Shown here: positions 50,257-64,000 of the stretch, in pieces
Position numbering within the stretch: the stretch's first letter is position 1
How the letters are laid out: each line of letters starts with the position of its first letter
Assembly: GCF_002215215.1 (NCBI RefSeq)
Contig: NZ_CP018632.1
Coordinates: 7,684,501 to 7,748,500, forward strand
DNA length: 64,000 nt
Reading direction: 5' to 3'
Origin: Granulosicoccus antarcticus IMCC3135
GTDB lineage: Bacteria > Pseudomonadota > Gammaproteobacteria > Granulosicoccales > Granulosicoccaceae
Notes under the pieces: model-generated
The model's input: the letters and a program-made list of their open reading frames with translations, nothing else
Databases searched by the model: none
What the model was told of the DNA's origin: nothing
Made by a program: the position numbers and the translations under genes

Positions 50257-51099
50257 TTATTGCCCACTGCCGGTATCCAGACTCGGATCAAATCCAGTTT
50301 CGAATACGATCTTGTGCGCCTGCAACAACGGATATTCATCATTTTCAGTGGCAAACATGCGTTGCCCCGAGCCGATGTAGAAGCGTTCACCGATATCGGT
50401 CCAGTCAGTTTTTCTGGCTAACGCACTCTGCGGATCACTCACTGTTGCCAGGCCCGGGTATCGCGTCGGCATGAACCCGGCTGAACTACTTTTGTTGACC
50501 CATCGCACCTGTATTGGCAGCCAGACAAGATCACGTAAACACTGCGGCTCGGAAAACGAAATTTCAGCGATATTGTCGAAGGGAACCCAGCAGTATTTGC
50601 AATCGAGAATGATCTCGAAAATCGGGCCAAGCCGCATGTCTGCATCACTTATCCATGAAAAAGACTGACCATCGATCGTGCCGGAGCGTGGCGCGGCCTG
50701 CTCCATCGCTTTCATGTCCCGTTCATTAGCCAGCGAACCGTTGCCATTTTCGGCCAGTTGCAGTGATTGTATGAGCGTAGCCAGCCAGCTATCGGGCTCG
50801 CCAAAGATCAGGGGCGCACGCTCACCAATGAAAACCTCATCACGAAAGACTTCGCATTGCAGCAGTTTTCGATAGGTTTGAGCCATCAGAAAGGCCCCCT
50901 TGTTCATACCTGCAGCCGTTTCCAACTGATTCAACGCCAGATCCCAGTTGCCCATGACACTGAGCAACTCGAATAACAATGTCTGCATTTCAGAATTGGC
51001 AGGCTCATCACTCAGCCCGTCTCGCAGTGCCTCAAGCGCCGCTTCAAGCTGTCCTGCGTCAATGCATTCTTCAACGTTCACGATGGCCTGCATCTCCAT
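50257..51099 (-). CDS. tagJ: TagJ/ImpE type VI secretion accessory protein
   Basis: This protein has 280 residues. The N-terminal half is helical and TPR-like (CIDAGQLEAALEALRDGLSDEPAN). The C-terminal half carries the ImpE signature SWISDADMRLGPIFEIILDCKYCWVPF, then LRDLVWLPIQVRW, PTRYPG and SGQRMFATENDEYPLL. TagJ binds the sheath protein TssB in some type VI systems. No other type VI gene is visible here, so it is an orphan or belongs to a distant locus. Confidence 0.88.
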   Translation of the reverse strand: MEMQAIVNVEECIDAGQLEAALEALRDGLSDEPANSEMQTLLFELLSVMGNWDLALNQLETAAGMNKGAFLMAQTYRKLLQCEVFRDEVFIGERAPLIFGEPDSWLATLIQSLQLAENGNGSLANERDMKAMEQAAPRSGTIDGQSFSWISDADMRLGPIFEIILDCKYCWVPFDNIAEISFSEPQCLRDLVWLPIQVRWVNKSSSAGFMPTRYPGLATVSDPQSALARKTDWTDIGERFYIGSGQRMFATENDEYPLLQAHKIVFETGFDPSLDTGSGQ

Positions 51100-51381
51100 G
51101 ACGATTTGAACTCAACATGAATTATTTGCAAACAATACAGTCCAATTGCCGAGTGCGCTCTGATTCGTAGCTGGTCAAATTATCAGGAACCGCCGAACCT
51201 GGCGGTAAGAGTGTGAGCAGGTATTGATATTTTTTTGCCCCTGGCAAGTATTATTTCGATCCCGGACGGCACGACTCTCGGTGTTTGTAGTTCTTCGAAT
51301 GACACAGCTACACTACTCCGCTAACCTGATGATTCGACGCCACACGGCGCAAGGGGCTCAGGCCAGTCGGAGTTATTGTTT

Positions 51382-52074
51382 ATGTTGACAGGATCGTCTA
51401 CAAATCACGCCAATGGAGAGTCGCTCTATGCCAGCCTGGTCATGGAAAACTGGCTGGGTTGGTCAGAAGATGGTGACAGTAGTATCGCTGTGCCCCAACA
51501 TTACTTGTTGCCGCAACGTGATAGCGTTCCCGCCTCGTTAAGACGTCGTCTCAGCCCTGTCGGTCTGGCTACCTGCAGTATTCTGTCGAGCCTGGCCGGT
51601 GATTCCGATATTCCCGTGATTTACGTCTCACGGCACGGTCGAGCTGGCAATACGCTGCTACTGCTACGAGAACTAGCCAACGAAGGCAGTATATCTCCCA
51701 GCCGCTTTTCCTTATCGGTACATAATGCGGTGGCAGGTATCTACAGCATTGCGAATAAGCACCTTAACTCCATACAGGCAATCTCGGCCAGTGGTGACGA
51801 GCTGCAAGCACTGGCACTGGAAGCCATCGCCTACCTGCGAACAGGTACAACCGCGGTTGTTGCCGTTTTCGCAGAAGAAGCCTTTCCGGATCATTACAAA
51901 GCCTACACCAGTGGCCCGAACCAGGGCTGTGTCGTAGGCATGCGCCTGTCCTTGAACCCGGACCTGCAACTGTACCCCGACATGCCACCGCTGCCGGACA
52001 AGCACGGCAGCAACCCACTGGATGTGCTGCAGTGGCTGGGAAGCTACAAACAGTGTAAAGAACGGACGCTCTGA
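51382..52074 (+). CDS. Beta-ketoacyl synthase chain-length-factor-like protein (ApeC type)
   Basis: From the ATG at 51382 (GGAG upstream) the protein has 230 residues. It resembles only the N-terminal half of a ketosynthase; where the catalytic cysteine would be, it reads SLSVHNAVAGIYSI. That is typical of the chain-length-factor partners in aryl polyene and related clusters, where they pair with an active ketosynthase. It is the first gene of the operon, and its stop overlaps the next start (TGATG). Confidence 0.82.
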   Translation: MLTGSSTNHANGESLYASLVMENWLGWSEDGDSSIAVPQHYLLPQRDSVPASLRRRLSPVGLATCSILSSLAGDSDIPVIYVSRHGRAGNTLLLLRELANEGSISPSRFSLSVHNAVAGIYSIANKHLNSIQAISASGDELQALALEAIAYLRTGTTAVVAVFAEEAFPDHYKAYTSGPNQGCVVGMRLSLNPDLQLYPDMPPLPDKHGSNPLDVLQWLGSYKQCKERTL

Positions 52075-52886
52075 TGCACCTACCTGATCCATGGCCCAGG
52101 CGCCTGAACCGACTCAGGCGTGCAATCGGAACTTACCTGTCCTTCACCGTTTTCGGAATCGGTGGCCTGTTCATCGGTCTGCTGGCCTCACCTGTACTCA
52201 CGCTGATGGAACGCGACGTCGGGCGGCGTCAGAAAAAAGCCCGTGCCATGATTCGCTGGTGTTTCTGCCGATTCATCGACGTCATGGAAGGCCTGGGCGT
52301 CATGCAACACGACTTTGAACATGTGGAGCGGCTACAACGCCCCGGCTTGCTGATTCTGGCTAACCACCCGACCCTGGTCGATGTCATCTATCTGGTGGCC
52401 CACGTTCCGCACGCCGTTTGCATCATCAAGGAAAAACTCACCACTAACATCTTTACCCGTGGGCCAGTTCTGGCCGCCGGTTATATTACCAATTCAGACC
52501 CTGAGCGAGTAATGGCCGAGGCTGCTCGACGCATGGCTGAGGGTGAATCCCTGATTCTGTTCCCGGAAGGCACTCGCAGCACACCTGGTGAGCAACTGGT
52601 CATGCAACGCGGGGCTGCCAATATTGCGCTGCATACCGGAGCGACAATAACGCCTGTTCTGATAGACTGCCGCCCCTCCGCGCTGAATAATGTAGATCGT
52701 TGGTACCAGATTCCAGCCGAGAAAGTTCAACTGACGCTGCAGGTGCAGGATGACCTGCCGCTGAAGGTGGACAGTACGCTTCCGAGACGCCTGGCGTCGA
52801 GACAATTGACAGACAGTCTCAGCCGCTACTTCAATACAAACATGAGCCGATTTCTGGATGAACACATCGACCGACCTGACGCTTGA
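52074..52886 (+). CDS. 1-acyl-glycerol-3-phosphate acyltransferase-like protein
   Basis: This 270-residue protein has a membrane segment near residues 20-45, the NHPTLVDV motif (Hx4D catalytic pair) and FPEGTRS. It belongs to the PlsC family. In aryl polyene loci such enzymes are thought to build the lipid anchor of the pigment. It overlaps its neighbours by one base upstream and 29 bases downstream. Confidence 0.88.
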   Translation: MHLPDPWPRRLNRLRRAIGTYLSFTVFGIGGLFIGLLASPVLTLMERDVGRRQKKARAMIRWCFCRFIDVMEGLGVMQHDFEHVERLQRPGLLILANHPTLVDVIYLVAHVPHAVCIIKEKLTTNIFTRGPVLAAGYITNSDPERVMAEAARRMAEGESLILFPEGTRSTPGEQLVMQRGAANIALHTGATITPVLIDCRPSALNNVDRWYQIPAEKVQLTLQVQDDLPLKVDSTLPRRLASRQLTDSLSRYFNTNMSRFLDEHIDRPDA

Positions 52887-53127
52887 GCTAAAGCGCGTCA
52901 TCATCGAGACATTGGAACTCGAAGATATTACGCCAGAAGATATCAATGCGGATGAGCCCCTTTTCGGAGAAGGACTCGGCCTGGACTCCATTGACGCTCT
53001 AGAATTGGGTCTGATGCTGCAGAAACGCTACGGCATTAAACTGAACGCCGAGTCGGATGATACCCATCGTCATTTTTCCAGCCTGAACGCATTGCGAGCG
53101 CTGGTGGAGTCACAGCGTGAAAAATAG
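52858..53127 (+). CDS. Acyl carrier protein, first copy
   Basis: This 89-residue acidic helical protein has the phosphopantetheine site GLGLDSIDALELG (Ser is the attachment point). It carries growing polyene intermediates. The ATG at 52858 lies inside the acyltransferase gene. Confidence 0.92.
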   Translation: MNTSTDLTLELKRVIIETLELEDITPEDINADEPLFGEGLGLDSIDALELGLMLQKRYGIKLNAESDDTHRHFSSLNALRALVESQREK

Positions 53128-53398
53128 TAATTCAACGCCAGAAACGGAAAACGGTATGGATACCAAAGTGTTCGATCATATTCGCGACACATTGAACAGC
53201 ATGTTCGATATCGACAAGAACAAGATCACACCTGAAGCACGTCTTTATGAAGATCTGGATATCGACAGCATCGATGCCGTCGATCTGGTCGTGGAGTTGA
53301 AGAGCTTCACTGGCAGCCGCATCAATCCGGATGATTTTAAATCGGTGCGAACCATTCAGGATGTGGTGTCTGCCGTCGAACGGCTCATGAAGCCCTGA
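53117..53398 (+). CDS. Acyl carrier protein, second copy
   Basis: This 93-residue protein has the attachment motif DLDIDSIDAVDLVVEL. It starts with GTG at 53117 (GGTGGAG upstream), overlapping the first acyl carrier gene by 11 bases; an ATG at 53156 is an alternative. Two different carrier proteins in tandem are characteristic of aryl polyene clusters. Confidence 0.9.
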   Translation: MKNSNSTPETENGMDTKVFDHIRDTLNSMFDIDKNKITPEARLYEDLDIDSIDAVDLVVELKSFTGSRINPDDFKSVRTIQDVVSAVERLMKP

Positions 53399-53412: not shown

Positions 53413-53931
53413 GTGCTGGAAAGACTAGGCACGGGGATCGCCTTATTGTGGCCAGCGATGGTGTACCTGTTGCATCAGCAACTGGGTGCATGGCCATTAT
53501 TGCTGGTCGGCTCAATGCTGCTGGCCTGGCGCATGCCGCGTGCGCGCGGTATTGCGCTGGCAGTGGCTGCGATGCTTTTGCTGCCCGGCCTGTTTGGCCA
53601 ACCCGAACTGGGTATGCGCTTTTACCCCGTAGGAGTCAGCCTTGCCATGTTGTTGCTCTTTGGCAGCAGCCTGATCTCAGGCATGCCAATGGTAGAGCAG
53701 ATCGCCCGCTTGAAGGACCCACAATTGCCCGCTGCCGCTATTCCCTATACCCGTAAAGTCACCTGGGCATGGTGCCTGTTCTTTGTAGTGAACGGCAGCA
53801 TTGCCGCATGGACCGCAGTCTATGGCAGCATGCAGCAATGGCTGAGCTACAACGGACTCATCAGTTATTGCCTGATGGGACTGATGTTTGCCGTCGAGTG
53901 GTGCTTACGTCCCCGCCAGCAAACTCACTGA
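53413..53931 (+). CDS. Small integral membrane protein of the aryl polyene cluster
   Basis: This 172-residue protein has about five hydrophobic segments and a GTG start with GGAGA seven bases upstream. It resembles the COG4648-type membrane proteins found at the same position in aryl polyene clusters. Its function is unknown; scaffolding or transport at the inner membrane is possible. Confidence 0.75.
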   Translation: MLERLGTGIALLWPAMVYLLHQQLGAWPLLLVGSMLLAWRMPRARGIALAVAAMLLLPGLFGQPELGMRFYPVGVSLAMLLLFGSSLISGMPMVEQIARLKDPQLPAAAIPYTRKVTWAWCLFFVVNGSIAAWTAVYGSMQQWLSYNGLISYCLMGLMFAVEWCLRPRQQTH

Positions 53932-53932
53932 C

Positions 53933-55654
53933 ATGTACTACTCACTGTGTTCACAACCCTGGCTGATGCCCGATGATGCCAGCTGGCATTGGCAGGAATC
54001 ATTGTCTGAGCATTGGGTCACACCAGCGCGCCTGTCAGCCTTGCTGCCAGATGCTCGCGACTGGTTGTCCAGGCATCCCGGTCAACGCTACCTGCTTCAC
54101 AGCGACAGTGCCCTGCATTTCAGTGCAGCATTGCTGGCTTGCTGGGAACAGGGAAAAATCGTGGTCTTGTCACCGGATGAGCACCCCGCCACCTTGGCAG
54201 CACTTCAATCCAGCACCGATCAGACAATACCGACCCGCCTACCGGCACGCGAGTCCCACGAAAGTGCATTGGTCAGCCAACCTCAGGCTCGTACCATGGA
54301 TGCATCTGCCATTGCCGTGGAACTGCACACCTCGGGCACCAGCGGGCAACCCCTGAAGGTCGTAAAGCACTTCTCGCAGCTGGACAACGAGCTGGGCGTG
54401 CACGCCGCCCTGTGGCCGCTGACGAACGCCTGTGTGATCTCTCAGGTCAGCCATCTGCATATCTACGGGCTGCTGACAGCCATTCTGCGTCCAATATGCG
54501 AAAAAGTACCGTTCAGCAACTCCCAGACTCGATTTCCGGAGGTGTTGCTTCAGCACCTGATCGAGGTTCAGCAGCATGCCATGCCGGCCACCATCATCAG
54601 TTCGCCAGCACAGCTGTCTCGCATGCCCGATGAGGTGCTGGGCACGGATGTACCGCCCGTCACCAGTCCGCAACGCCTGTTTTCCTCGGGTGCCCCCTTG
54701 TCCCAGCAGGATGCAATCCGCAGCGAGTCCTTATTTGGCTGTGAAGTGATCGAAATCTATGGCAGTACAGAAACAGGCGGTATTGCCACACGCCGACAAT
54801 CGCAAGCAGCAGCATGGGACCCCTTGCCGGGTGTCACCATCAGCAATGTCGATGACTGCCTGTGTGTACATTCCCAATTTCTCGAAAATCCGTCTCAGCC
54901 CTGGATGCAGGCGGACAGAATTCAGTTGCAGGGGCAAACGTTTACCTTGTTGGGGCGTCAGGACAGAATCGCCAAGATTGCTGGCAAGCGTGTGTCACTG
55001 GGTCGTGTCGAACGCCTGCTCGAAGACTTTGACAAGGTGACTCAGTTACGCTGTATTGATCTGAACCCTCAACATGATCGACTCGGCATGGTGGTCGCCA
55101 TGTCGCCAGATGCCCTGCCACAGACACACGCTGAACGACAGGCATTGCAACAGCAAATGCAAGCTCACCTGGCCCGCGAACTTGATCCGATCTCCATTCC
55201 ACGCTATTGGCGTCTGGTTGACAGCATTCCTCTCAATTCGCAGGGCAAGCCTGATCGAATAGCCATTTCGCGCCTGTTCGCCGACTTGTACGACCGGAGT
55301 CTGCCACGCTGGCTGGGCCAGAGTCGGCCCGATGCAAACACCGCAATCTGCCAGCTTGAAGTGCCCTTCAGGCTAGCCAGTCTTGAGGGTCATTTTGAAG
55401 GCTTGCCGCTTGTCCCTGGCATGGTCATGGTCCAGTGGGGCTGTGATCTGGCCGCAGAAGCATTCGCCCCTCTGGGAGACTTTCGCGGTCTGAGCAGGCT
55501 CAAGTTTCAGCAAATTCTGCAACCCGGCCAACGGCTCACCCTGCGCGTTGAACGAAAGCCTCACTGTATTGCCTTTTCAGTGACATCAGCACTAGGCAGA
55601 CACTGTATGGGTCAGCTGGATTTCTCCGGCCTTGCGGAAAAAACAATCCCATGA
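53933..55654 (+). CDS. Acyl-ACP ligase fused to a 3-hydroxyacyl-ACP dehydratase
   Basis: From the ATG at 53933 the protein has 573 residues. The adenylating domain (about 1-460) has VELHTSGTSGQPLKV and EIYGSTETGGIATR. A C-terminal FabZ-like hotdog domain (about 475-573) has LEGHFEGLPLVPGM with catalytic-type His487. The first half probably loads the aromatic starter acid on an acyl carrier protein (ApeH role) and the second dehydrates 3-hydroxyacyl intermediates (ApeI role). These are separate genes in E. coli. Its stop overlaps the next start. Confidence 0.88.
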   Translation: MYYSLCSQPWLMPDDASWHWQESLSEHWVTPARLSALLPDARDWLSRHPGQRYLLHSDSALHFSAALLACWEQGKIVVLSPDEHPATLAALQSSTDQTIPTRLPARESHESALVSQPQARTMDASAIAVELHTSGTSGQPLKVVKHFSQLDNELGVHAALWPLTNACVISQVSHLHIYGLLTAILRPICEKVPFSNSQTRFPEVLLQHLIEVQQHAMPATIISSPAQLSRMPDEVLGTDVPPVTSPQRLFSSGAPLSQQDAIRSESLFGCEVIEIYGSTETGGIATRRQSQAAAWDPLPGVTISNVDDCLCVHSQFLENPSQPWMQADRIQLQGQTFTLLGRQDRIAKIAGKRVSLGRVERLLEDFDKVTQLRCIDLNPQHDRLGMVVAMSPDALPQTHAERQALQQQMQAHLARELDPISIPRYWRLVDSIPLNSQGKPDRIAISRLFADLYDRSLPRWLGQSRPDANTAICQLEVPFRLASLEGHFEGLPLVPGMVMVQWGCDLAAEAFAPLGDFRGLSRLKFQQILQPGQRLTLRVERKPHCIAFSVTSALGRHCMGQLDFSGLAEKTIP

Positions 55655-56412
55655 CTGACTTTCGAGTCTGCGCCCTGGTTCCGGTATACAACCACCCCGG
55701 CACCATTACCAAGGTCTGTCGTGAACTCAGTGACATGGGCATGCCCGTGTTGCTGGTCGATGATGGTTGCAGTGCCCCTAATGCAAAGGAGCTGGACCAG
55801 CTGAGCACTGGACAAGATGTTCACTTGCTACGACTCGAAGACAATCATGGCAAAGGCTATGCGGTTCGCGCAGGACTGGTAAAGGCCGAATCTCTGGGCT
55901 TCACTCATGCTCTGCAACTGGATGCGGATGCCCAGCACGCTCAATCCAGCCTGTCAGCTTTCCTGCAACAGGGTGAAAGTCACCCACAGACGCTGTTTGC
56001 AGGTTATGCCTGTTATGACGACAGCGTGCCCAAGAGCCGCTTTTACGGACGCTACCTGACGCATGTATGGGTGTGGATAAATACCCTGTCGCTGAGCATT
56101 CGCGATTCCATGTGTGGCGTCAGGCTCTATCCGCTGACAGAGATCAATTGCCTGCTAGCGCATCACGACTGCACCGATCGCATGGCATTTGATACCGAGG
56201 TGCTGGTGCGCTGGTACTGGTCAGGTCGTCCGTTAAGCAATCTACCGGTTGAAGTCCATTATCCCGTCGGAGGCGTCAGTCATTTTTCCCTGTTCCGAGA
56301 CAATCGTGATATCACCATGATGCATACACGCTTGTTTTTCGGCATGTTATTGCGCTTGCCGGTTTTATCATGGCGCAAGCTCAGGACGGCAACAAACACT
56401 GGAAGGCAGTAG
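55651..56412 (+). CDS. Family 2 glycosyltransferase
   Basis: This 253-residue protein has the GT2 pattern: VPVYNHPGTI, VLLVDDG and the nucleotide/metal-binding ALQLDADAQH. A C-terminal hydrophobic segment may touch the membrane. Its start overlaps the previous stop (ATGA), and its end overlaps the next open frame. It may glycosylate the lipid anchor of the pigment; the acceptor is unknown. Confidence 0.87.
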   Translation: MTDFRVCALVPVYNHPGTITKVCRELSDMGMPVLLVDDGCSAPNAKELDQLSTGQDVHLLRLEDNHGKGYAVRAGLVKAESLGFTHALQLDADAQHAQSSLSAFLQQGESHPQTLFAGYACYDDSVPKSRFYGRYLTHVWVWINTLSLSIRDSMCGVRLYPLTEINCLLAHHDCTDRMAFDTEVLVRWYWSGRPLSNLPVEVHYPVGGVSHFSLFRDNRDITMMHTRLFFGMLLRLPVLSWRKLRTATNTGRQ

Positions 56413-56414
56413 CA

Positions 56415-57347
56415 ATGCATTGGGCAAGCATTAACGAAAGAGGCTCTATTTTCGGTATGCAGCTGATCTTGTGGATCCAGAGGCATTTGGGTCCCTGGCC
56501 GTTGCGATTATGCCTGTGGCTGCTCATTTTCTGGTATTTCATACTGCACAAAACTGCCAGGCTTGCATCACAGGACTTTCTTGTGAGAGTCGATCCCACC
56601 TTGCGTGCGCGCCCCTGGGCTCTGTTAGTACGCTCCTATCGACATCTGCTCAGCTTTGCAGAAACGCTACTGGACAAGGTTGCTGCCTGGAGCGGACTCA
56701 TCGCTGATGAGCGCCTGGTTGGAATAGGGCGGGAGAACTTTCGCAAAGTTCAGGAAGCGGGACGCGGGGGCGTGATCATAGTGGCTCATCACGGCAATCT
56801 GGATGTCATCAATGCGATGGCAGAAAACTATCCGGGCCTGGAGCTGGTCGTACTGATGCACACCAGAAATGCTGACAAATTCAATCGTATTATTGAGCAG
56901 GCCAGTCAGCGAAAACGACCACGAATCATTGAAACCTCGGATATAACACCGGGCACGGCACAGTCGCTGGCAACATTGCTGAACAAGGGCGGATTTGTGC
57001 TCATTGCCGCCGATCGTGTGCCGATCAATAGCGATCGTTCGCAGAACGTCGAATTTCTCGGCCATTTGGCACCCTTTCCGCAAGGACCTTTCCTGCTTGC
57101 AGCGTTGCTACGCTGTCCGATCTATCTTGCAGGCTGTATCAAGCAGGGACAACAATTTCTAATTGATTTCGAGCCGCTGGGCGATTCGACGCAATTGTCT
57201 CGCCGCGATCGTGAACAATGGATTGAAGATACAACCCGACGTTTCGTCAAACAACTGGATACACGGGTTCGCGAATATCCTTTGCAATGGTTCAACTTCT
57301 TCTTTTTCTGGCGCGCACCCGTCGTGCACGATGACACCCAAGATTGA
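56415..57347 (+). CDS. LpxL/HtrB-like lipid acyltransferase
   Basis: The start is placed at the ATG 56415, giving 310 residues; an earlier in-frame ATG at 56370 is possible. It has an N-terminal membrane helix (about 20-45) and the motif AHHGNLDVIN, containing the Hx4D pair of the lauroyl-acyltransferase family. It probably transfers an acyl or aryl polyenoyl group to a lipid or glycolipid. Confidence 0.85.
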   Translation: MHWASINERGSIFGMQLILWIQRHLGPWPLRLCLWLLIFWYFILHKTARLASQDFLVRVDPTLRARPWALLVRSYRHLLSFAETLLDKVAAWSGLIADERLVGIGRENFRKVQEAGRGGVIIVAHHGNLDVINAMAENYPGLELVVLMHTRNADKFNRIIEQASQRKRPRIIETSDITPGTAQSLATLLNKGGFVLIAADRVPINSDRSQNVEFLGHLAPFPQGPFLLAALLRCPIYLAGCIKQGQQFLIDFEPLGDSTQLSRRDREQWIEDTTRRFVKQLDTRVREYPLQWFNFFFFWRAPVVHDDTQD

Positions 57348-57350
57348 ATT

Positions 57351-57788
57351 ATGAGTCCTGATGATTTCGCTCTACCCCGGGTTGAAACGGTTATCAAAAT
57401 CCCGTTTCATGATGTCGACAGCATGGATCTGGTCTGGCATGGCAACTACGCACGCTACCTTGAAATCGCTCGCTGTGAGTTGCTCGATTGCATCGACTAC
57501 AACTACCTGCAGATGCGTGATTCGGGCTATGCCTGGCCTGTCATAGACATGCGCCTGCGCTACGCCGGCCCTGCAACCTTTGGTCAACAAATCATCGTGA
57601 AGGCTGAATTGAAGGAATGGGAACATCGTTTGAAGGTGGGCTACACAATTGTGGATGCGACCAGTGGCAAACGCCTGACGCGAGCCTCGACGGTACAAGT
57701 TGCGGTCTGCATGAAAGCCGAGGAAATGTGCCTGGCATCACCGCCCGTATTCGTTGAACGCCTGCTTGCGTGGCAGCAAAAACAATGA
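57351..57788 (+). CDS. 4HBT-type acyl-CoA/ACP thioesterase
   Basis: This 145-residue protein has the hotdog active-site pattern HDVDSMDLVWHGNYARYLEIAR of YbgC-like thioesterases, including the catalytic Asp (first D of DSMD). In aryl polyene clusters such an enzyme may release or proofread polyene chains. The stop overlaps the next start (ATGA). Confidence 0.9.
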   Translation: MSPDDFALPRVETVIKIPFHDVDSMDLVWHGNYARYLEIARCELLDCIDYNYLQMRDSGYAWPVIDMRLRYAGPATFGQQIIVKAELKEWEHRLKVGYTIVDATSGKRLTRASTVQVAVCMKAEEMCLASPPVFVERLLAWQQKQ

Positions 57789-58345
57789 TCGAAACCAGCC
57801 GATACCTGGCTCTGGTCTTGTCGCTGTGTACCGCTTTGACGGCACAGAGCATAATGGCGCAGCAAACTGAACCCTCTGTGTCGACAACCGGACTGTCACT
57901 GGCAAGCTTCAATTGTGCCCGTTTTACCCAGGAACGTTATCTGGCCGATTTTGAAGCCAGCATCCACAGCAGTGGCTATCTGCGCAAGGACGATGAGAGT
58001 ATCGAGTGGCATATCCTCGAACCCATTGAAGATACGACCATCATTGGACCTGATGCAGATAATCTGTCACCGGCATTAAGTGCCATGGCACCGTTGCTGC
58101 GCAGTTTGCTATCAGGCGATTGGCAACAACTGGAACAGTTCTTTGCCATTGAGCTAAACAGTGCAGAAGGGGCATGGCAGGCAACATTGCAACCGCGCCA
58201 GGAGTCTCTTGCCGAGCATTTGAATTCGCTCCTGCTCAGCGGCGACGAAGCGGTGGACAAGATCGAATTGTATTTCGCCAACCAGGATCATCTGGCTATC
58301 CAGCTACAGATCGTGGAGTGTGCAAGCCTTGAGGCAAGTCGCTAG
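57785..58345 (+). CDS. LolA-like periplasmic lipoprotein-carrier protein
   Basis: From the ATG at 57785 the protein has 186 residues. It has a signal peptide (hydrophobic core, ending near SIMAQQ) and the LolA-like segment FTQERYLADFEASIHSSGYLRKDDESIEWHI. It probably shuttles the aryl polyene lipid across the periplasm. It lies just before the exporter gene, matching the usual order. Confidence 0.85.
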   Translation: MIETSRYLALVLSLCTALTAQSIMAQQTEPSVSTTGLSLASFNCARFTQERYLADFEASIHSSGYLRKDDESIEWHILEPIEDTTIIGPDADNLSPALSAMAPLLRSLLSGDWQQLEQFFAIELNSAEGAWQATLQPRQESLAEHLNSLLLSGDEAVDKIELYFANQDHLAIQLQIVECASLEASR

Positions 58346-58376: not shown

Positions 58377-60770
58377 ATGACGTCACGGCATTTCACTACC
58401 CAGCTCTCTGCCATTGCAGCCATTGCCTGGCTGCTGGTGATTCTGACATGTCTGGTCACGACAGTCAGATTGCTGGCGAGCGGTGATGCACCCATCGAAA
58501 CCCGCATTACTGCCCTGTTGCCGCAAACGCATCAGAGTGAATTGCTGGATGAAAGTCTGGCCTTGCTGGATGAGCGGGTACAGCAGAGCGTGCTCTTGCT
58601 CGTGGCCGGGGATTCACCCGCAGCACTTGTCAGCGATTTGCAAGCAGAGCTACAAACAAGTGCAGGAGTTGCATTTACAAATGCCGATGCATTCAGTGAA
58701 CTCAAACGGCAGCTGCTACCGTTCAGGAACTCGTTACTGAGCCCACAGCTTCGTGCCCTGACGCAAGAGCAATGGCAGCAACGTGCCTTGCAAGGTCTCT
58801 TTACGCCCGGTATGCAATCGGATTTTGCCAACGATCCGTTCGCCCTGCTCGACACCTGGCTACTGAATTCCATTGATACCTCGATCACACTTCAGAACGG
58901 TGTGCCGATGATCAAGACAGAAACAAAGACCTGGGCCCTGCTTTCCGGACAGCTTGAAAAAAGCCCCTTCGATATGCAGCAGCAGACAACCATCGTCAAG
59001 GCGCTGCAAGACTTCCATGATAGCCACCCGGAGGCGCAGCTGTTGCGTAGCGGGGTTGTATTTCATGCCGCAGCAGCTACCCAGCAAGCACAGTTTGAAG
59101 TAAGCACCATCGGTCTGGGCTCTCTGCTGGGCGTTATACTCATTGCTTATCTGATCTTTCGGCGTCTGCAGGTACTGCTCAGCCTGTTACTACCCGTTGC
59201 CTGCGGACTGTTGTTCGCGCTCTCAGGCAGCATGTGGATATACGGCAGTATCAATCTGCTAACGCTCACCTTTGGTGCCAGCCTGGTCGGACTATCAGTT
59301 GACTACGCCCTGCACTTGCAATGTTTTCGACTACTGCACCCCGAACGAAATCTTCGCCTTATCTGGCCAGCCTTGATACTGGCTCTGATCTCCAGTCTGG
59401 CAGCCTATCTGGTGCAGCTGGCAACGCCCTTGCCCGGCTTGCGTCAAATGGCCACTTTTACCTCATTGGGATTGATTGGCGCCTGGCTTAGCGTCTGTCT
59501 CTGGCTGCCCTATATGCCGGTCAAGCCCCACCCCTTCACGGCACAAGCGGCCAGTACTTTGTCTCGATTCAGCATACCCGACGGGCGTCGCTGGCCCTGG
59601 CTTTTGCTGATTCTAGTGATGGCATCCAGCTTACTGACCATAGCGCTACGAATGCACAGTAACGATGACTTGCGGCAGATCAACCCTGCCAGCGAATCAC
59701 TGATGGCTGAACAACGGCAGGTACAGTCACTGTTTTCCAGTGCCAGCAGCAACCGCTTCCTGCTGGTGAACGCCGCTGACGATGAACAACTTCTACAGCG
59801 CCTGGAGGGTCTGCAGACGCAGCTATCAGCCCTGCAGCAGGCGGCTCATCTGCAAGCGTTTGAACATCTGGCCAGTTGGGTACCTTCGGCGCAACGCCAG
59901 CAACTAAATGCAGCGATTGTCGATGAGGCCTATCGCAGCGCCTTGCCCAAAGCGTTGCAACAAGCTGGACTCCCATCCAGTATGCTGGCGCGCTTTACTA
60001 ACGGTGAACGCAAGCCTGTTAACCACGGCAAGAATTTGTCTGAGCAGGAGCAGGAGCAGGAGCAGGAACAGGAACAGGAACAGGAACAGGAACAGGAACA
60101 AAGCCTGGCACCAGCTCTCACTCCTCAAGAATGGCTCACGATGGCCCATAACCATCCATCCACAGCCCTGTGGATAGAATCCAATAGTGCACATGGACCT
60201 GCCGCTCTGGTCTTGCTTGGAGAGATGGATGCACAGGCTGAGACCACGTTGCAGCAACTCGCCAAGGCATCCGACATTCAATATATCGATCGCGTCAACA
60301 TTATCTCAAACGCTCTGTCAGCCTTGCGCAAGCAGATAGCAATCTGGATGCTGGTTGCAATCGTAATATTATCTGTGATTCTTACCCTGCGATACCGACA
60401 GAATTTCTGGCGGGCTCTGCTACCGTCAATTGGAGCTATAGTGCTGACATTGGCGTTGATCAGCGCTGCGGGCACCGCCATTACCCTGTTTCACCTGCTA
60501 GCTCTGTTGCTGGTTATCGGGATCGGTCTGGATGCCGGCATATTCAGTGCCGAGCATCAGGACAGTCACGGAGCCTGGCTGGCTTCAAGCCTGTCTTGCC
60601 TCACCAGCTTGCTGGCATTTGGCTTGTTGGCATTGAGCAGTACGCCTGCCTTGTCCATACTGGGAACGACTTGCCTGTTTGGCTTGATCTGCACCTGGCT
60701 ACTGGTACCCTTCGCACGGGCCAGAAGCATACCTTCACTCTCCTCTTTGCTGAGGCTCAGTCAAACCTGA
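58377..60770 (+). CDS. MMPL/RND-family exporter
   Basis: This 797-residue inner-membrane protein has the two-fold RND layout. A first helix (about 12-32), a large periplasmic domain, five helices (about 240-385), a second helix/periplasmic domain (about 400-630), and five more helices follow. A glutamate-glutamine dipeptide run, nine copies, sits at residues 556-573 in the second periplasmic domain. MMPL proteins move lipids to the periplasm; this one probably exports the aryl polyene lipid. Confidence 0.88.
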   Translation: MTSRHFTTQLSAIAAIAWLLVILTCLVTTVRLLASGDAPIETRITALLPQTHQSELLDESLALLDERVQQSVLLLVAGDSPAALVSDLQAELQTSAGVAFTNADAFSELKRQLLPFRNSLLSPQLRALTQEQWQQRALQGLFTPGMQSDFANDPFALLDTWLLNSIDTSITLQNGVPMIKTETKTWALLSGQLEKSPFDMQQQTTIVKALQDFHDSHPEAQLLRSGVVFHAAAATQQAQFEVSTIGLGSLLGVILIAYLIFRRLQVLLSLLLPVACGLLFALSGSMWIYGSINLLTLTFGASLVGLSVDYALHLQCFRLLHPERNLRLIWPALILALISSLAAYLVQLATPLPGLRQMATFTSLGLIGAWLSVCLWLPYMPVKPHPFTAQAASTLSRFSIPDGRRWPWLLLILVMASSLLTIALRMHSNDDLRQINPASESLMAEQRQVQSLFSSASSNRFLLVNAADDEQLLQRLEGLQTQLSALQQAAHLQAFEHLASWVPSAQRQQLNAAIVDEAYRSALPKALQQAGLPSSMLARFTNGERKPVNHGKNLSEQEQEQEQEQEQEQEQEQEQSLAPALTPQEWLTMAHNHPSTALWIESNSAHGPAALVLLGEMDAQAETTLQQLAKASDIQYIDRVNIISNALSALRKQIAIWMLVAIVILSVILTLRYRQNFWRALLPSIGAIVLTLALISAAGTAITLFHLLALLLVIGIGLDAGIFSAEHQDSHGAWLASSLSCLTSLLAFGLLALSSTPALSILGTTCLFGLICTWLLVPFARARSIPSLSSLLRLSQT
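60042..60095 (+). repeat. Nine-copy hexanucleotide repeat encoding (Glu-Gln)9
   Basis: Four GAGCAG units are followed by four GAACAG and one GAACAA, without interruption. All lie in frame in the exporter gene. The 6-base unit permits length variation by replication slippage without frameshift. Confidence 0.95.
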
Positions 60771-60792: not shown

Positions 60793-62028
60793 ATGCAAGC
60801 TGAATTCGAACAAACAGATGTAGCGATAATCGGAGCTGGCCCCTCAGGTGCAGCCGCCGCTAACTGGCTGGCGCAGCAAGGGTTGCAGGTCAAGGTCCTG
60901 GAAAGAAGTCACTTCCCCCGTTTTTCCATTGGCGAAAGCCTCCTGCCGCAGTGCATGGAGTATCTGGATTTTTGTGGTTTGCTGGAAACGGCAACAACCG
61001 GTAACTTCCAACGGAAGAACGGTGCTGCCTTTAGCTGGGGTGAACAATATCGCGATATTGATTTCAGCGACAAGTTCTCTCCCGGTCCGGCTACAACCTG
61101 GCAAGTAGAGCGCTCGGAGTTTGATCATCAGCTGATTCGTGGTGCTCAGGCATCCGGTGTTGATGTTGAATTTGGCAGTCAGGTTGTCGGTTTTGAACCT
61201 GATGCCACTGAGCCGGTACTACAGGTCCAGCCAGAAAACGGTGATGCCTATGCACTGAAAAGCCGGTTCGTTCTGGATGCCAGTGGTTACGGACGAGTAT
61301 TGGCCAGATTATGCAACCTGGAAAAAGCCTCCAGACTGGAAAGTCGCTGCGCCCTGTTTACACACATGCGTAGTGTTGTGGATGATGAGAACTATGACCG
61401 CAAAAAAATACTGATTTGCATACATCCGAGCATCAAAGGCATCTGGTACTGGTTTATCCCTTTTCCAGAAAACCGATTTTCAGTGGGTGTGGTCGGCACA
61501 CCTGATCAGCTGGCCTTGTTCGGCGACGACGATACGCAGCGTTTGCAAAACACCTTGCTTGATGAGCCTCGCCTTGCCAAATACCTCAAGGGGGCAACCT
61601 CCCTGCGTGATACCAGCAAGCTGGCAGGCTATTCGGCGGATGTTTCGGCATTGCATGGGCCCGGTTATGCATTATTGGGCAATGCTGGCGAGTTTCTGGA
61701 TCCGGTTTTCTCTTCCGGTGTGACCATTGCACTCAAATCTGCCGTACTTGCAGCCCCCTTGGTACACAGACAACTACAGGGAGAGACTATCGACTGGCCA
61801 TCGGAGTTCGAGCAACCTTTACGCGCTGGCGTCAATACCTTCAAGGCCTTTGTCAACGCCTGGTATACGAACGAGCTGCCAGACATCATCTTCTCCGATC
61901 AGGATTCGGTCCGAATCCGTCAGATGATCAGTGCAGTACTGGCAGGCTATGCCTGGGACAGCACCAATCCTCTGGTCAGTGCATCTGAGCGCCGTCTTAC
62001 CAAGCTGGCAGAATTGTGCAGGGCATGA
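60793..62028 (+). CDS. Flavin-dependent halogenase-like / FAD-dependent oxidoreductase
   Basis: This 411-residue protein begins with the FAD-binding motif VAIIGAGPSGAAAANWL, then LERSHFPRFSIGESLLP, typical of the tryptophan-halogenase/geranylgeranyl-reductase superfamily. Residues 218-223 read WYWFIP, matching the WxWxIP motif used to recognise flavin-dependent halogenases. The C-terminal GPGYALLGNAGEFLDPVFSSGV closes the FAD site. It is embedded in the aryl polyene operon and overlaps the next gene (ATGA). Halogenation of the aryl end group is plausible; a plain oxidoreductase role cannot be excluded. Confidence 0.82.
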   Translation: MQAEFEQTDVAIIGAGPSGAAAANWLAQQGLQVKVLERSHFPRFSIGESLLPQCMEYLDFCGLLETATTGNFQRKNGAAFSWGEQYRDIDFSDKFSPGPATTWQVERSEFDHQLIRGAQASGVDVEFGSQVVGFEPDATEPVLQVQPENGDAYALKSRFVLDASGYGRVLARLCNLEKASRLESRCALFTHMRSVVDDENYDRKKILICIHPSIKGIWYWFIPFPENRFSVGVVGTPDQLALFGDDDTQRLQNTLLDEPRLAKYLKGATSLRDTSKLAGYSADVSALHGPGYALLGNAGEFLDPVFSSGVTIALKSAVLAAPLVHRQLQGETIDWPSEFEQPLRAGVNTFKAFVNAWYTNELPDIIFSDQDSVRIRQMISAVLAGYAWDSTNPLVSASERRLTKLAELCRA

Positions 62029-62573
62029 TCCGTGGGCGTATGACGTTTTTGAGCGGATTACTGGCATTCGCACTGAGCTCTTGCGCCATTACCCCATCAG
62101 CGCCACCGATCCCCCGGTTGACTGAACTGGCACCCACGGCTCCCAGAGTCCAACGTCTGCAAATTTTCTCTGCAGAGTCTGAGTTTCAACTCACAGCCGT
62201 ACTTGCGCATACCCACGATCGACTGCAACTGGCTGTTCTGAGTCCCAATGGACAGCGATTATTTACCTTGTTGCATGATCACGATGGAACGCGATATCTG
62301 CCCGACAGCACGATCTCTCCACCGGTGACGGCGCCTTGGTTAGCCAGCCGCCTGGGGTGGGCACTGTGGCCGAAAGAATCTCTGGAATCGGCATTTGCCA
62401 ACACCCCATGGAGTCTGCACAGCGTGGCAAATCGACGAGAAGTATTATTTCGTCACAGGATACAAGCTAGCATTCTGCTATCAGATGCGTGCACAGTGAT
62501 AGAAGATTTCCAGATGAAGGTCAGTATGTCCATATCTCCGCTCGATTCAAGCAAACCCTGTGCCCCCCTATGA
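62025..62573 (+). CDS. DUF3261 family outer-membrane lipoprotein
   Basis: From the ATG at 62025 the protein has 182 residues. A lipoprotein signal peptide with lipobox LSSC places the acylated Cys near residue 19. The rest matches the DUF3261 proteins regularly found in aryl polyene clusters; it resembles LolB in role and may receive the pigment lipid at the outer membrane. Both ends overlap neighbours by four bases. Confidence 0.82.
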   Translation: MIRGRMTFLSGLLAFALSSCAITPSAPPIPRLTELAPTAPRVQRLQIFSAESEFQLTAVLAHTHDRLQLAVLSPNGQRLFTLLHDHDGTRYLPDSTISPPVTAPWLASRLGWALWPKESLESAFANTPWSLHSVANRREVLFRHRIQASILLSDACTVIEDFQMKVSMSISPLDSSKPCAPL

Positions 62574-63748
62574 GCGTGCCAGCACCCTCCTTCTGTCGCC
62601 TGCATCCGCCAGCTATTGTCTGCCCGCTGGGTAGCGAGCTGCCGCAGATCAGAGATGCCTTGTTTTCAGGTCGAGATGGTTTGCAGCAGAGTGATCGTTT
62701 CACTCCTGACATGCCGCAAATGCTGGGCTATGTGGATTCAGCCCTGCCTGATATCACGCTCTGGCCCGTCCACGAACGCTCCCGCAACAATGCTTTACTG
62801 TCCCTGGCACTGGACCGATTGATGCCGCAGATAGACCAATACCGGGATAGTCACCCGGAGGCACGAATTGCCGTGGTCATGGGTACCAGTACCTCAGGCA
62901 TCGGAGAAGCCGAACAAGCAATCAATCAGCTGGACAAGAACGGTGACTGGCCTGAAGAGTTTCATTATTCCAATCAGGAACTGGGAGCTCCGGCCCTCTT
63001 CATCAAGAAGCGCGCAAATCTACAGGGTCCTGCCTACACGATCAGTACGGCCTGTACCTCCAGTGCCAGAGCCCTGGCCAGTGCGCAGCGGCTGTTACAG
63101 GCCAATTTGTGCGATGCCGTCATAACCGGCGGTGCAGACAGCTTGTGTGGCTTGACCATTCAGGGGTTCAGATCGCTCGAGGCCGTCAGTGACAGCCAGT
63201 GCCGCCCTTTCGGTCAGGATCGCAACGGCATCAACCTGGGTGAGGCCGCTGTGCTGTTTCTGATGACCGCTGAACCAGGTGGCATGCAACTTCTCGGTTA
63301 TGGCGAAAGCAGTGATGCACATCACATCAGTGCCCCTGCACCCGATGGACACGGCGCCAGTGCAGCCATGCAGGCAGCCATAGACATGGCAGGTCTCAAG
63401 CCCGAAGATGTCGGCTATGTCAATTTGCACGGTACGGCCACTCGTTTGAACGACTCCATGGAAGCAACGGCCATGCAGCGTATCTTCGGCTCGTCAGTGC
63501 TCTGCAGTTCAACCAAAACACTGACCGGGCATACCCTGGGTGCCTGTGGTGCTCTGGAGGCCGCTTTTTGCTGGTTGGCACTGGAGAGCGGGCAGCTACC
63601 CGCACAACAGGCAGACTACAAGATAGATCCCAAGCTGCCGTCCCTGAATCTGACCCGAGGTGGCAAGTGGGAAGGGGATACCGCCATGAGCAATTCATAT
63701 GCCTTCGGCGGCAATAACATCGCATTGCTGATAAAACGCAGCTCATGA
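62570..63748 (+). CDS. Beta-ketoacyl-ACP synthase (ApeO-like)
   Basis: From the ATG at 62570 the protein has 392 residues. The nucleophile Cys162 lies in STACTSSARA, and the two histidines are in LHGTATRLND and TLTGHTLGACGALEAA, giving a complete Cys-His-His triad. It is the active elongating ketosynthase expected to pair with the chain-length-factor-like protein that opens the operon. The ATGA overlap with the lipoprotein gene settles the start. Confidence 0.92.
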   Translation: MSVPAPSFCRLHPPAIVCPLGSELPQIRDALFSGRDGLQQSDRFTPDMPQMLGYVDSALPDITLWPVHERSRNNALLSLALDRLMPQIDQYRDSHPEARIAVVMGTSTSGIGEAEQAINQLDKNGDWPEEFHYSNQELGAPALFIKKRANLQGPAYTISTACTSSARALASAQRLLQANLCDAVITGGADSLCGLTIQGFRSLEAVSDSQCRPFGQDRNGINLGEAAVLFLMTAEPGGMQLLGYGESSDAHHISAPAPDGHGASAAMQAAIDMAGLKPEDVGYVNLHGTATRLNDSMEATAMQRIFGSSVLCSSTKTLTGHTLGACGALEAAFCWLALESGQLPAQQADYKIDPKLPSLNLTRGGKWEGDTAMSNSYAFGGNNIALLIKRSS

Positions 63749-64000
63749 CAATCATCGATTCTAGCGCCACTATCAAGATGCCTTGCTGCATCAAGCCCTA
63801 CGTGCCGCACTCGGGCAGAATGTGCTTGCTCGACACTTTGTTGAAGACAAATGGCGAAGTTCTTGAAGCCGGCGTCGTACCCACCCTGCAAAGTCAGTTT
63901 GCCACGGATCAGGGAGTCCCGGGCTGGATCGGTCTTGAGTGGATGGCACAGGCCATCGCGGCCTGGTCAGGCGTACAGGCTCGTGCTGCAGGCAGAGCGC
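63745..64000 (+). CDS. Aryl polyene hotdog dehydratase (ApeP-like), 3' end missing
   Basis: Eighty-five codons are visible before the window ends. The N terminus reads MTIIDSSATIKM, then YVPHSGRMCLLD with the catalytic-type His, and later GWIGLEWMAQAIAAWSG. This matches the ApeP-type 3-hydroxyacyl-ACP dehydratases. It overlaps the ketosynthase stop by four bases (ATGA). It would be the second dehydratase in the operon, beside the one fused to the ligase. Confidence 0.85.
   Translation, partial: MTIIDSSATIKMPCCIKPYVPHSGRMCLLDTLLKTNGEVLEAGVVPTLQSQFATDQGVPGWIGLEWMAQAIAAWSGVQARAAGRA

Follow-up and report, generated by a model that had tools for sequence, protein, structure and literature searches.

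Few bacterial biosynthetic gene clusters are as widespread as those for aryl polyenes (APE), and to our knowledge the finished outer-membrane APE lipid has been described only in part. Genes of the halogenase type have been found in such clusters before. A 2013 study on Lysobacter reported halogenase genes to be conserved near the ketosynthase pair that is also present here (PMC3691225), and Xanthomonas clusters combine halogenase genes with a brominated product (PMC3691225; PMC3838355). In Azoarcus a gene for a 'halogenase' lies beside a chorismatase gene (arcA-arcB), yet arcuflavin, the product of this cluster, is not brominated (PMC3949708); XanB1-XanB2 of Xanthomonas show the same arrangement as arcA-arcB (PMC3838355). 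E. coli CFT073 does without such a gene between the exporter and the LolB-like protein, ApeM being directly joined to ApeN (gene table in PMC8253772). As to the scaffold, QhpG is built like the halogenase CmlS (Dali Z 34) and yet is a monooxygenase that hydroxylates its substrate (PMC7876137).

A halogenase-like gene in a canonical APE cluster

In the window analysed here, 64,000 nucleotides of Granulosicoccus antarcticus IMCC3135, a gene for a flavin-halogenase-like protein sits between ApeM and ApeN of a complete canonical APE cluster (Table 1). The cluster continues beyond the window end, where ApeP is followed by ApeQ, ApeR, a lipoprotein-like ORF and a PPTase, and further on by genes that read from the ORFs as a P-type metal ATPase, ATP synthase genes and parAB. 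The window cluster and its continuation showed no ApeB methyltransferase, no aromatic ammonia lyase and no chorismatase. Within ApeM, positions 60045-60100 consist of 9.3 copies of CAGGAA that encode a Gln-Glu run; as the unit has 6 bases, a change in copy number keeps the frame. Directly upstream of the cluster an ORF on the reverse strand (50257-51099) resembles, by eye, an ImpE-type type VI secretion protein.

Table 1. The APE cluster, the halogenase-like gene and its motifs (positions in the window), and two related loci elsewhere.
Feature	Position	Strand	Basis or remark
ApeC-type chain length factor (PF13723)	51376..52074	+	domain match
ApeD-like lysophospholipid acyltransferase	52074..52886	+	
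Acyl carrier protein 1	52858..53127	+	
Acyl carrier protein 2	53117..53398	+	
ApeG-like membrane protein	53413..53931	+	
ApeH-like aryl-ACP/CoA ligase, C-terminal dehydratase-like part	53888..55654	+	
ApeJ-like glycosyltransferase	55651..56412	+	
LpxL-like acyltransferase	56370..57347	+	
ApeK-like thioesterase	57351..57788	+	
ApeL (LolA-like, PF19574)	57770..58345	+	domain match
ApeM MMPL/RND exporter	58377..60770	+	
Flavin-halogenase-like FAD enzyme, 411 aa	60793..62028	+	ORF, Pfam, PDB, AF2
GAGPSG nucleotide-binding motif, residues 14-19	60832..60849	+	invariant G14, G16, P17, G19
SIGESLLP, residues 45-52	60925..60948	+	sequence, family alignment
K75 codon	61015..61017	+	aligns with catalytic lysine of CmlS, CndH, Mpy16, ChlB4
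WYWFIP (WxWxIP motif), residues 218-223	61444..61461	+	W, W, I, P invariant in 95/95
N297-G309, NAGEFLDPVFSSG	61681..61719	+	GN replaces GD of known halogenases
ApeN (LolB-like, DUF3261)	62016..62573	+	domain match; start overlaps end of halogenase-like gene
ApeO ketosynthase	62489..63748	+	
ApeP dehydratase	63745..63999	+	runs past window end
Chorismatase-adjacent halogenase-like proteins	L147:7395-10061 and L148:9528-11961		other APE-like clusters

The gene begins with ATG, 22 bases past ApeM, and its length includes the stop codon; the reverse strand over the same interval is interrupted by stops and has no open frame. The encoded protein matches the Pfam families Trp_halogenase (1.7e-19) and FAD_binding_3 (6.8e-17), and the best NCBIfam model is the CmlS equivalog NF033113, whose score of 146 bits lies far below the curated cut-off of 900 bits. 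The preliminary description of this DNA had recognised a halogenase-like gene within an aryl polyene operon, and with ORF, Pfam and PDB matches and the APE neighbours in agreement this observation is confirmed: the gene is genuine and intact, and it is related to halogenases. Also borne out were the motifs named there. The FAD motif (GAGPSG, corresponding to the GxGxxG of halogenases of the PltA/CmlS kind) and SIGESLLP are intact, and WYWFIP is the halogenase motif WxWxIP. The catalytic lysine that the preliminary description had proposed to look for was found as K75, which is the same in all 95 relatives of the family alignment, a set chosen without use of K75 or WxWxIP. The stretch N297-G309 shares DP.FSSG with known halogenases.

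Structural relatives and position in the family

The best match in the PDB (1.8e-93) is 3nix, an uncharacterised 'flavoprotein/dehydrogenase' of Cytophaga hutchinsonii that is not a proven halogenase, followed by the halogenases Mpy16 (1.7e-39), CndH (7.5e-37) and CmlS (8e-36) and by ChlB4, Bmp2 and PltA, a likeness to halogenases at the sequence level that is far beyond chance. The AF2 model (pLDDT 91.8) superimposes on 3nix with a Z score of 56.7 and an rmsd of 1.5 Å across 402 residues, on PltA with Z 45.6 (399 residues, 2.4 Å) and on ChlB4, Mpy16 and Bmp2 with Z scores of 45.4, 45.1 and 44.5-45; hydroxylases of the PHBH type reach about 36, some 9 Z units below the halogenases. With GxGxxG, WxWxIP, the lysine and the predicted fold the protein has the sequence and fold hallmarks of a flavin halogenase. 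Full-length identity to 3nix is 39%, and 3nix belongs to the same clade and has GN, the lysine and WxWxIP as in our protein, but it comes from a member of the Bacteroidota and is known from its structure only. PltA, Mpy16, Bmp2, ChlB4, CndH and CmlS share the fold, GxGxxG, the lysine, WxWxIP and DP.FS.G, but are only 27-30% identical, belong to another clade and have GD instead of GN.

In a midpoint-rooted tree that included few biochemically proven halogenases, the clade of our protein and 3nix is split with 100/100 support from a group formed by four characterised halogenases and a further APE-associated clade. Fixed in the clade are, among others, N297, which replaces the Asp of the GD motif of the others, and A15, R185, H211, E300, W357 and W388. 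Two members of the further APE-associated clade adjoin a PF21168 chorismatase (XanB2 type, FkbO/Hyg5-type; Table 1), and judging by these neighbours rather than by any named Xanthomonas sequence, the xanthomonadin-type XanB1/ArcA-like enzymes probably sit in that other clade. The analogy to brominated xanthomonadins drawn in the preliminary description is indirect: on both sides a halogenase-like gene with the lysine and WxWxIP lies in an aryl-polyene-type cluster, but the XanB2-adjacent 'halogenase' is about 30% identical, groups with the characterised halogenases and has a chorismatase neighbour. Our protein might still be a xanthomonadin-type brominase, an orthologue of XanB1/ArcA that makes a xanthomonadin-like pigment, as both are halogenase-like flavoproteins of APE-type clusters and the Xanthomonas genes go with a brominated product. 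We consider this very improbable because the tree separates the two clades, which contradicts orthology as far as XanB1/ArcA are rightly placed by their neighbours, and the window cluster has no chorismatase.

A common component of APE clusters

How widespread is the gene? Among 26 congeneric genomes no full-length match exceeded 31% identity, so that its distribution in the genus is patchy. In a first sample of 369 genomes drawn evenly from the class, a group with 41-52% identity was found in 16 other genomes, in 14 of them with MMPL and/or ketosynthase genes inside a 1.5 kb flank. This sample contained 20 APE clusters on contigs that were not truncated, 15 of them with a gene of this clade (14 in the cluster, one 64 kb away), two with a gene of a different clade and three with none; three gene-less APE matches (G139, G255 and G098), whose contigs measure about 10 kb at most, were left out of this count. 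In a second sample the gene was present in 25 of 42 further ApeC-bearing genomes, always within 13 kb of ApeC, so that in both samples pooled about 65% of the sampled canonical APE clusters have it. Searching viral contigs with the protein gave no match, nor did scanning genome contigs with the single sequence; scanning the genome contigs with an alignment profile yielded at least 593 relatives. The best 80 of these come from Halomonadaceae, Shewanella, Pseudomonas, Acinetobacter, Snodgrassella, Vibrio, Pseudoalteromonas, burkholderias, Nitrosomonas and others, and most of them, across many families, occupy the slot ApeM-gene-(ApeN)-ApeO.

Orthologues in Acinetobacter baumannii (CP035931) and Pseudoalteromonas shioyasakiensis (CP076682), about 47-61% identical, have the same slot and the same neighbours, and these clusters differ from that of the window in detail only, for example by a gene for an aromatic ammonia lyase, which is absent from the window. 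In public records orthologues are called 'NAD(P)/FAD-dependent oxidoreductase' or 'tryptophan 7-halogenase'. This wide occurrence in the same slot, together with the Lysobacter report, means that the gene is an already known and common component of the APE clusters of hundreds of bacteria, from soil and the sea as well as from hosts. Nor does it support a special status of this locus or of a marine habitat, whose bromide and chloride the preliminary description had brought up, as same-slot orthologues occur in soil, clinical and insect-gut bacteria and the gene is common among non-marine genera. The marine-halide argument was therefore rejected.

Relation to the head-group methyltransferase ApeB

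In the first sample none of the 15 genomes with the gene had ApeB nearby, and all three genomes without the gene had ApeB. Strict exclusivity of the two genes was dropped, since a Vibrio-like genus has both and several clusters have neither: in the second sample gene and ApeB occurred together in one genus only, where they are arranged as in Vibrio, and neither was present in 11 genomes. Counted by genera, ApeB is present in 1 of 28 gene-bearing and 9 of 17 gene-lacking genera (Fisher p = 2e-4, uncorrected for phylogeny), whereas at the genome level the second sample alone gives no significant anti-correlation (p = 0.30). Gene and ApeB are thus anti-correlated as a genus-level tendency only. 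In Vibrio the gene directly adjoins ApeB, and genomes that we take to be V. fischeri-like, given 99% identity to a LuxI probe, have an intact orthologue that neighbours ApeB and the APE operon. The genus-level tendency fits, and weakly backs, a ring-tailoring role on the same ring.

Halogenase or another flavoenzyme?

How could such an enzyme act on an aryl polyene? As a conserved APE-cluster enzyme with the architecture of flavin halogenases acting on carrier-protein-bound substrates or phenols (PltA, Mpy16, Bmp2, CmlS), it would take FADH2 from a general flavin reductase and form a flavin hydroperoxide, with which halide might be oxidised to HOX. K75 would then pass the halogen to an electron-rich ring, presumably that of the 4-hydroxyphenyl head group and probably while the aryl chain sits on an Ape ACP. 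An APE-dedicated enzyme of the flavin-halogenase type that acts on the aryl head group is the reading we put forward from sequence and model, giving it an even chance. In its favour are the invariant K75 and WxWxIP, the four solved halogenases in which a lysine aligns with K75, the better match of the model to halogenases than to hydroxylases such as PHBH, the fixed ApeM-[gene]-ApeN/ApeO slot and the proximity to ApeC in all gene-bearing genomes of the second sample. The adjacency to ApeB in Vibrio, and the rarity of ApeB together with the gene elsewhere, point in the same direction.

Against halogenation speak the lack of a known activity for 3nix, the nearest solved relative, the full separation of the clade from the tested halogenases, and the replacement of the usually conserved GD of the FAD site by GN throughout the clade. 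The lack of a significant anti-correlation with ApeB at the genome level in the second sample alone and the clusters with neither gene likewise weaken the case. We know of no report that APE_Vf is halogenated, and the V. fischeri-like clusters carry the gene. The non-brominated arcuflavin, made by a cluster with a 'halogenase', argues in the same sense, and a literature search found no halogenated APE from this clade. Several of these points would suit a flavoenzyme that has kept the scaffold of a halogenase but does not halogenate, such as a hydroxylase of the ring or an oxidase/isomerase with the aryl polyene as substrate, to which we assign a probability somewhat short of even. Such an enzyme would be in keeping with the separate clade shared with 3nix, with the numerous residues peculiar to this clade, among them N297 for D, H211 and W357, and with the precedent of QhpG; moreover, a gene in about two thirds of the APE clusters is widely distributed for a halogenation that went undetected. 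However, plain monooxygenases need neither the lysine in the catalytic position nor WxWxIP, both of which are perfectly conserved, and hydroxylase structures fall clearly behind the halogenases in the comparison with the model. That the gene is decaying or silent and has no present function is hardly credible: the lack of close congeneric matches would allow for a recent gain or patchy retention, but the gene is full length and free of stops, has all motifs intact and is tightly packed in an intact operon.

The sequence does not decide on the activity, and assignment as a halogenase is plausible, with the odds about balanced. Accordingly, of the halogenated APE lipid that the preliminary description had envisaged for this locus, the halogenase character of the enzyme stands as plausible to that same degree and the special status of the locus does not. 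The locus itself is ordinary; what is of interest is the question of halogenation for the whole clade. Should the halogenase signature be functional, halogenation could extend to a large part of the APE pigments and so far have been missed; if it is not, an abundant APE enzyme is built on a halogenase scaffold. More speculatively, the clade including 3nix might, in the majority of proteobacterial APE clusters, provide halogenation of the aryl head group as an alternative to methylation by ApeB, so that halogenated outer-membrane APE lipids would be widespread and overlooked, a proposal that we regard as possible but rather doubtful.

Further relatives

Three other loci deserve mention. In Neisseria gonorrhoeae (NZ_CP119140.1) a homologue of 50% identity aligns as two separate segments and may be frameshifted; the record is labelled a plasmid, but with 2.17 Mb is probably the chromosome. 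At G799:C1:4136000-4155900 an ApeC gene is interrupted by a stop and stands without further APE genes nearby, indicating a decayed cluster. On plasmid pAUEa of Aureispira anguillae a 39% identical homologue lies near an MMPL/acyltransferase/methyltransferase fusion, a C45 peptidase and an AMP-binding protein, surroundings that resemble a flexirubin-type cluster of Bacteroidota.
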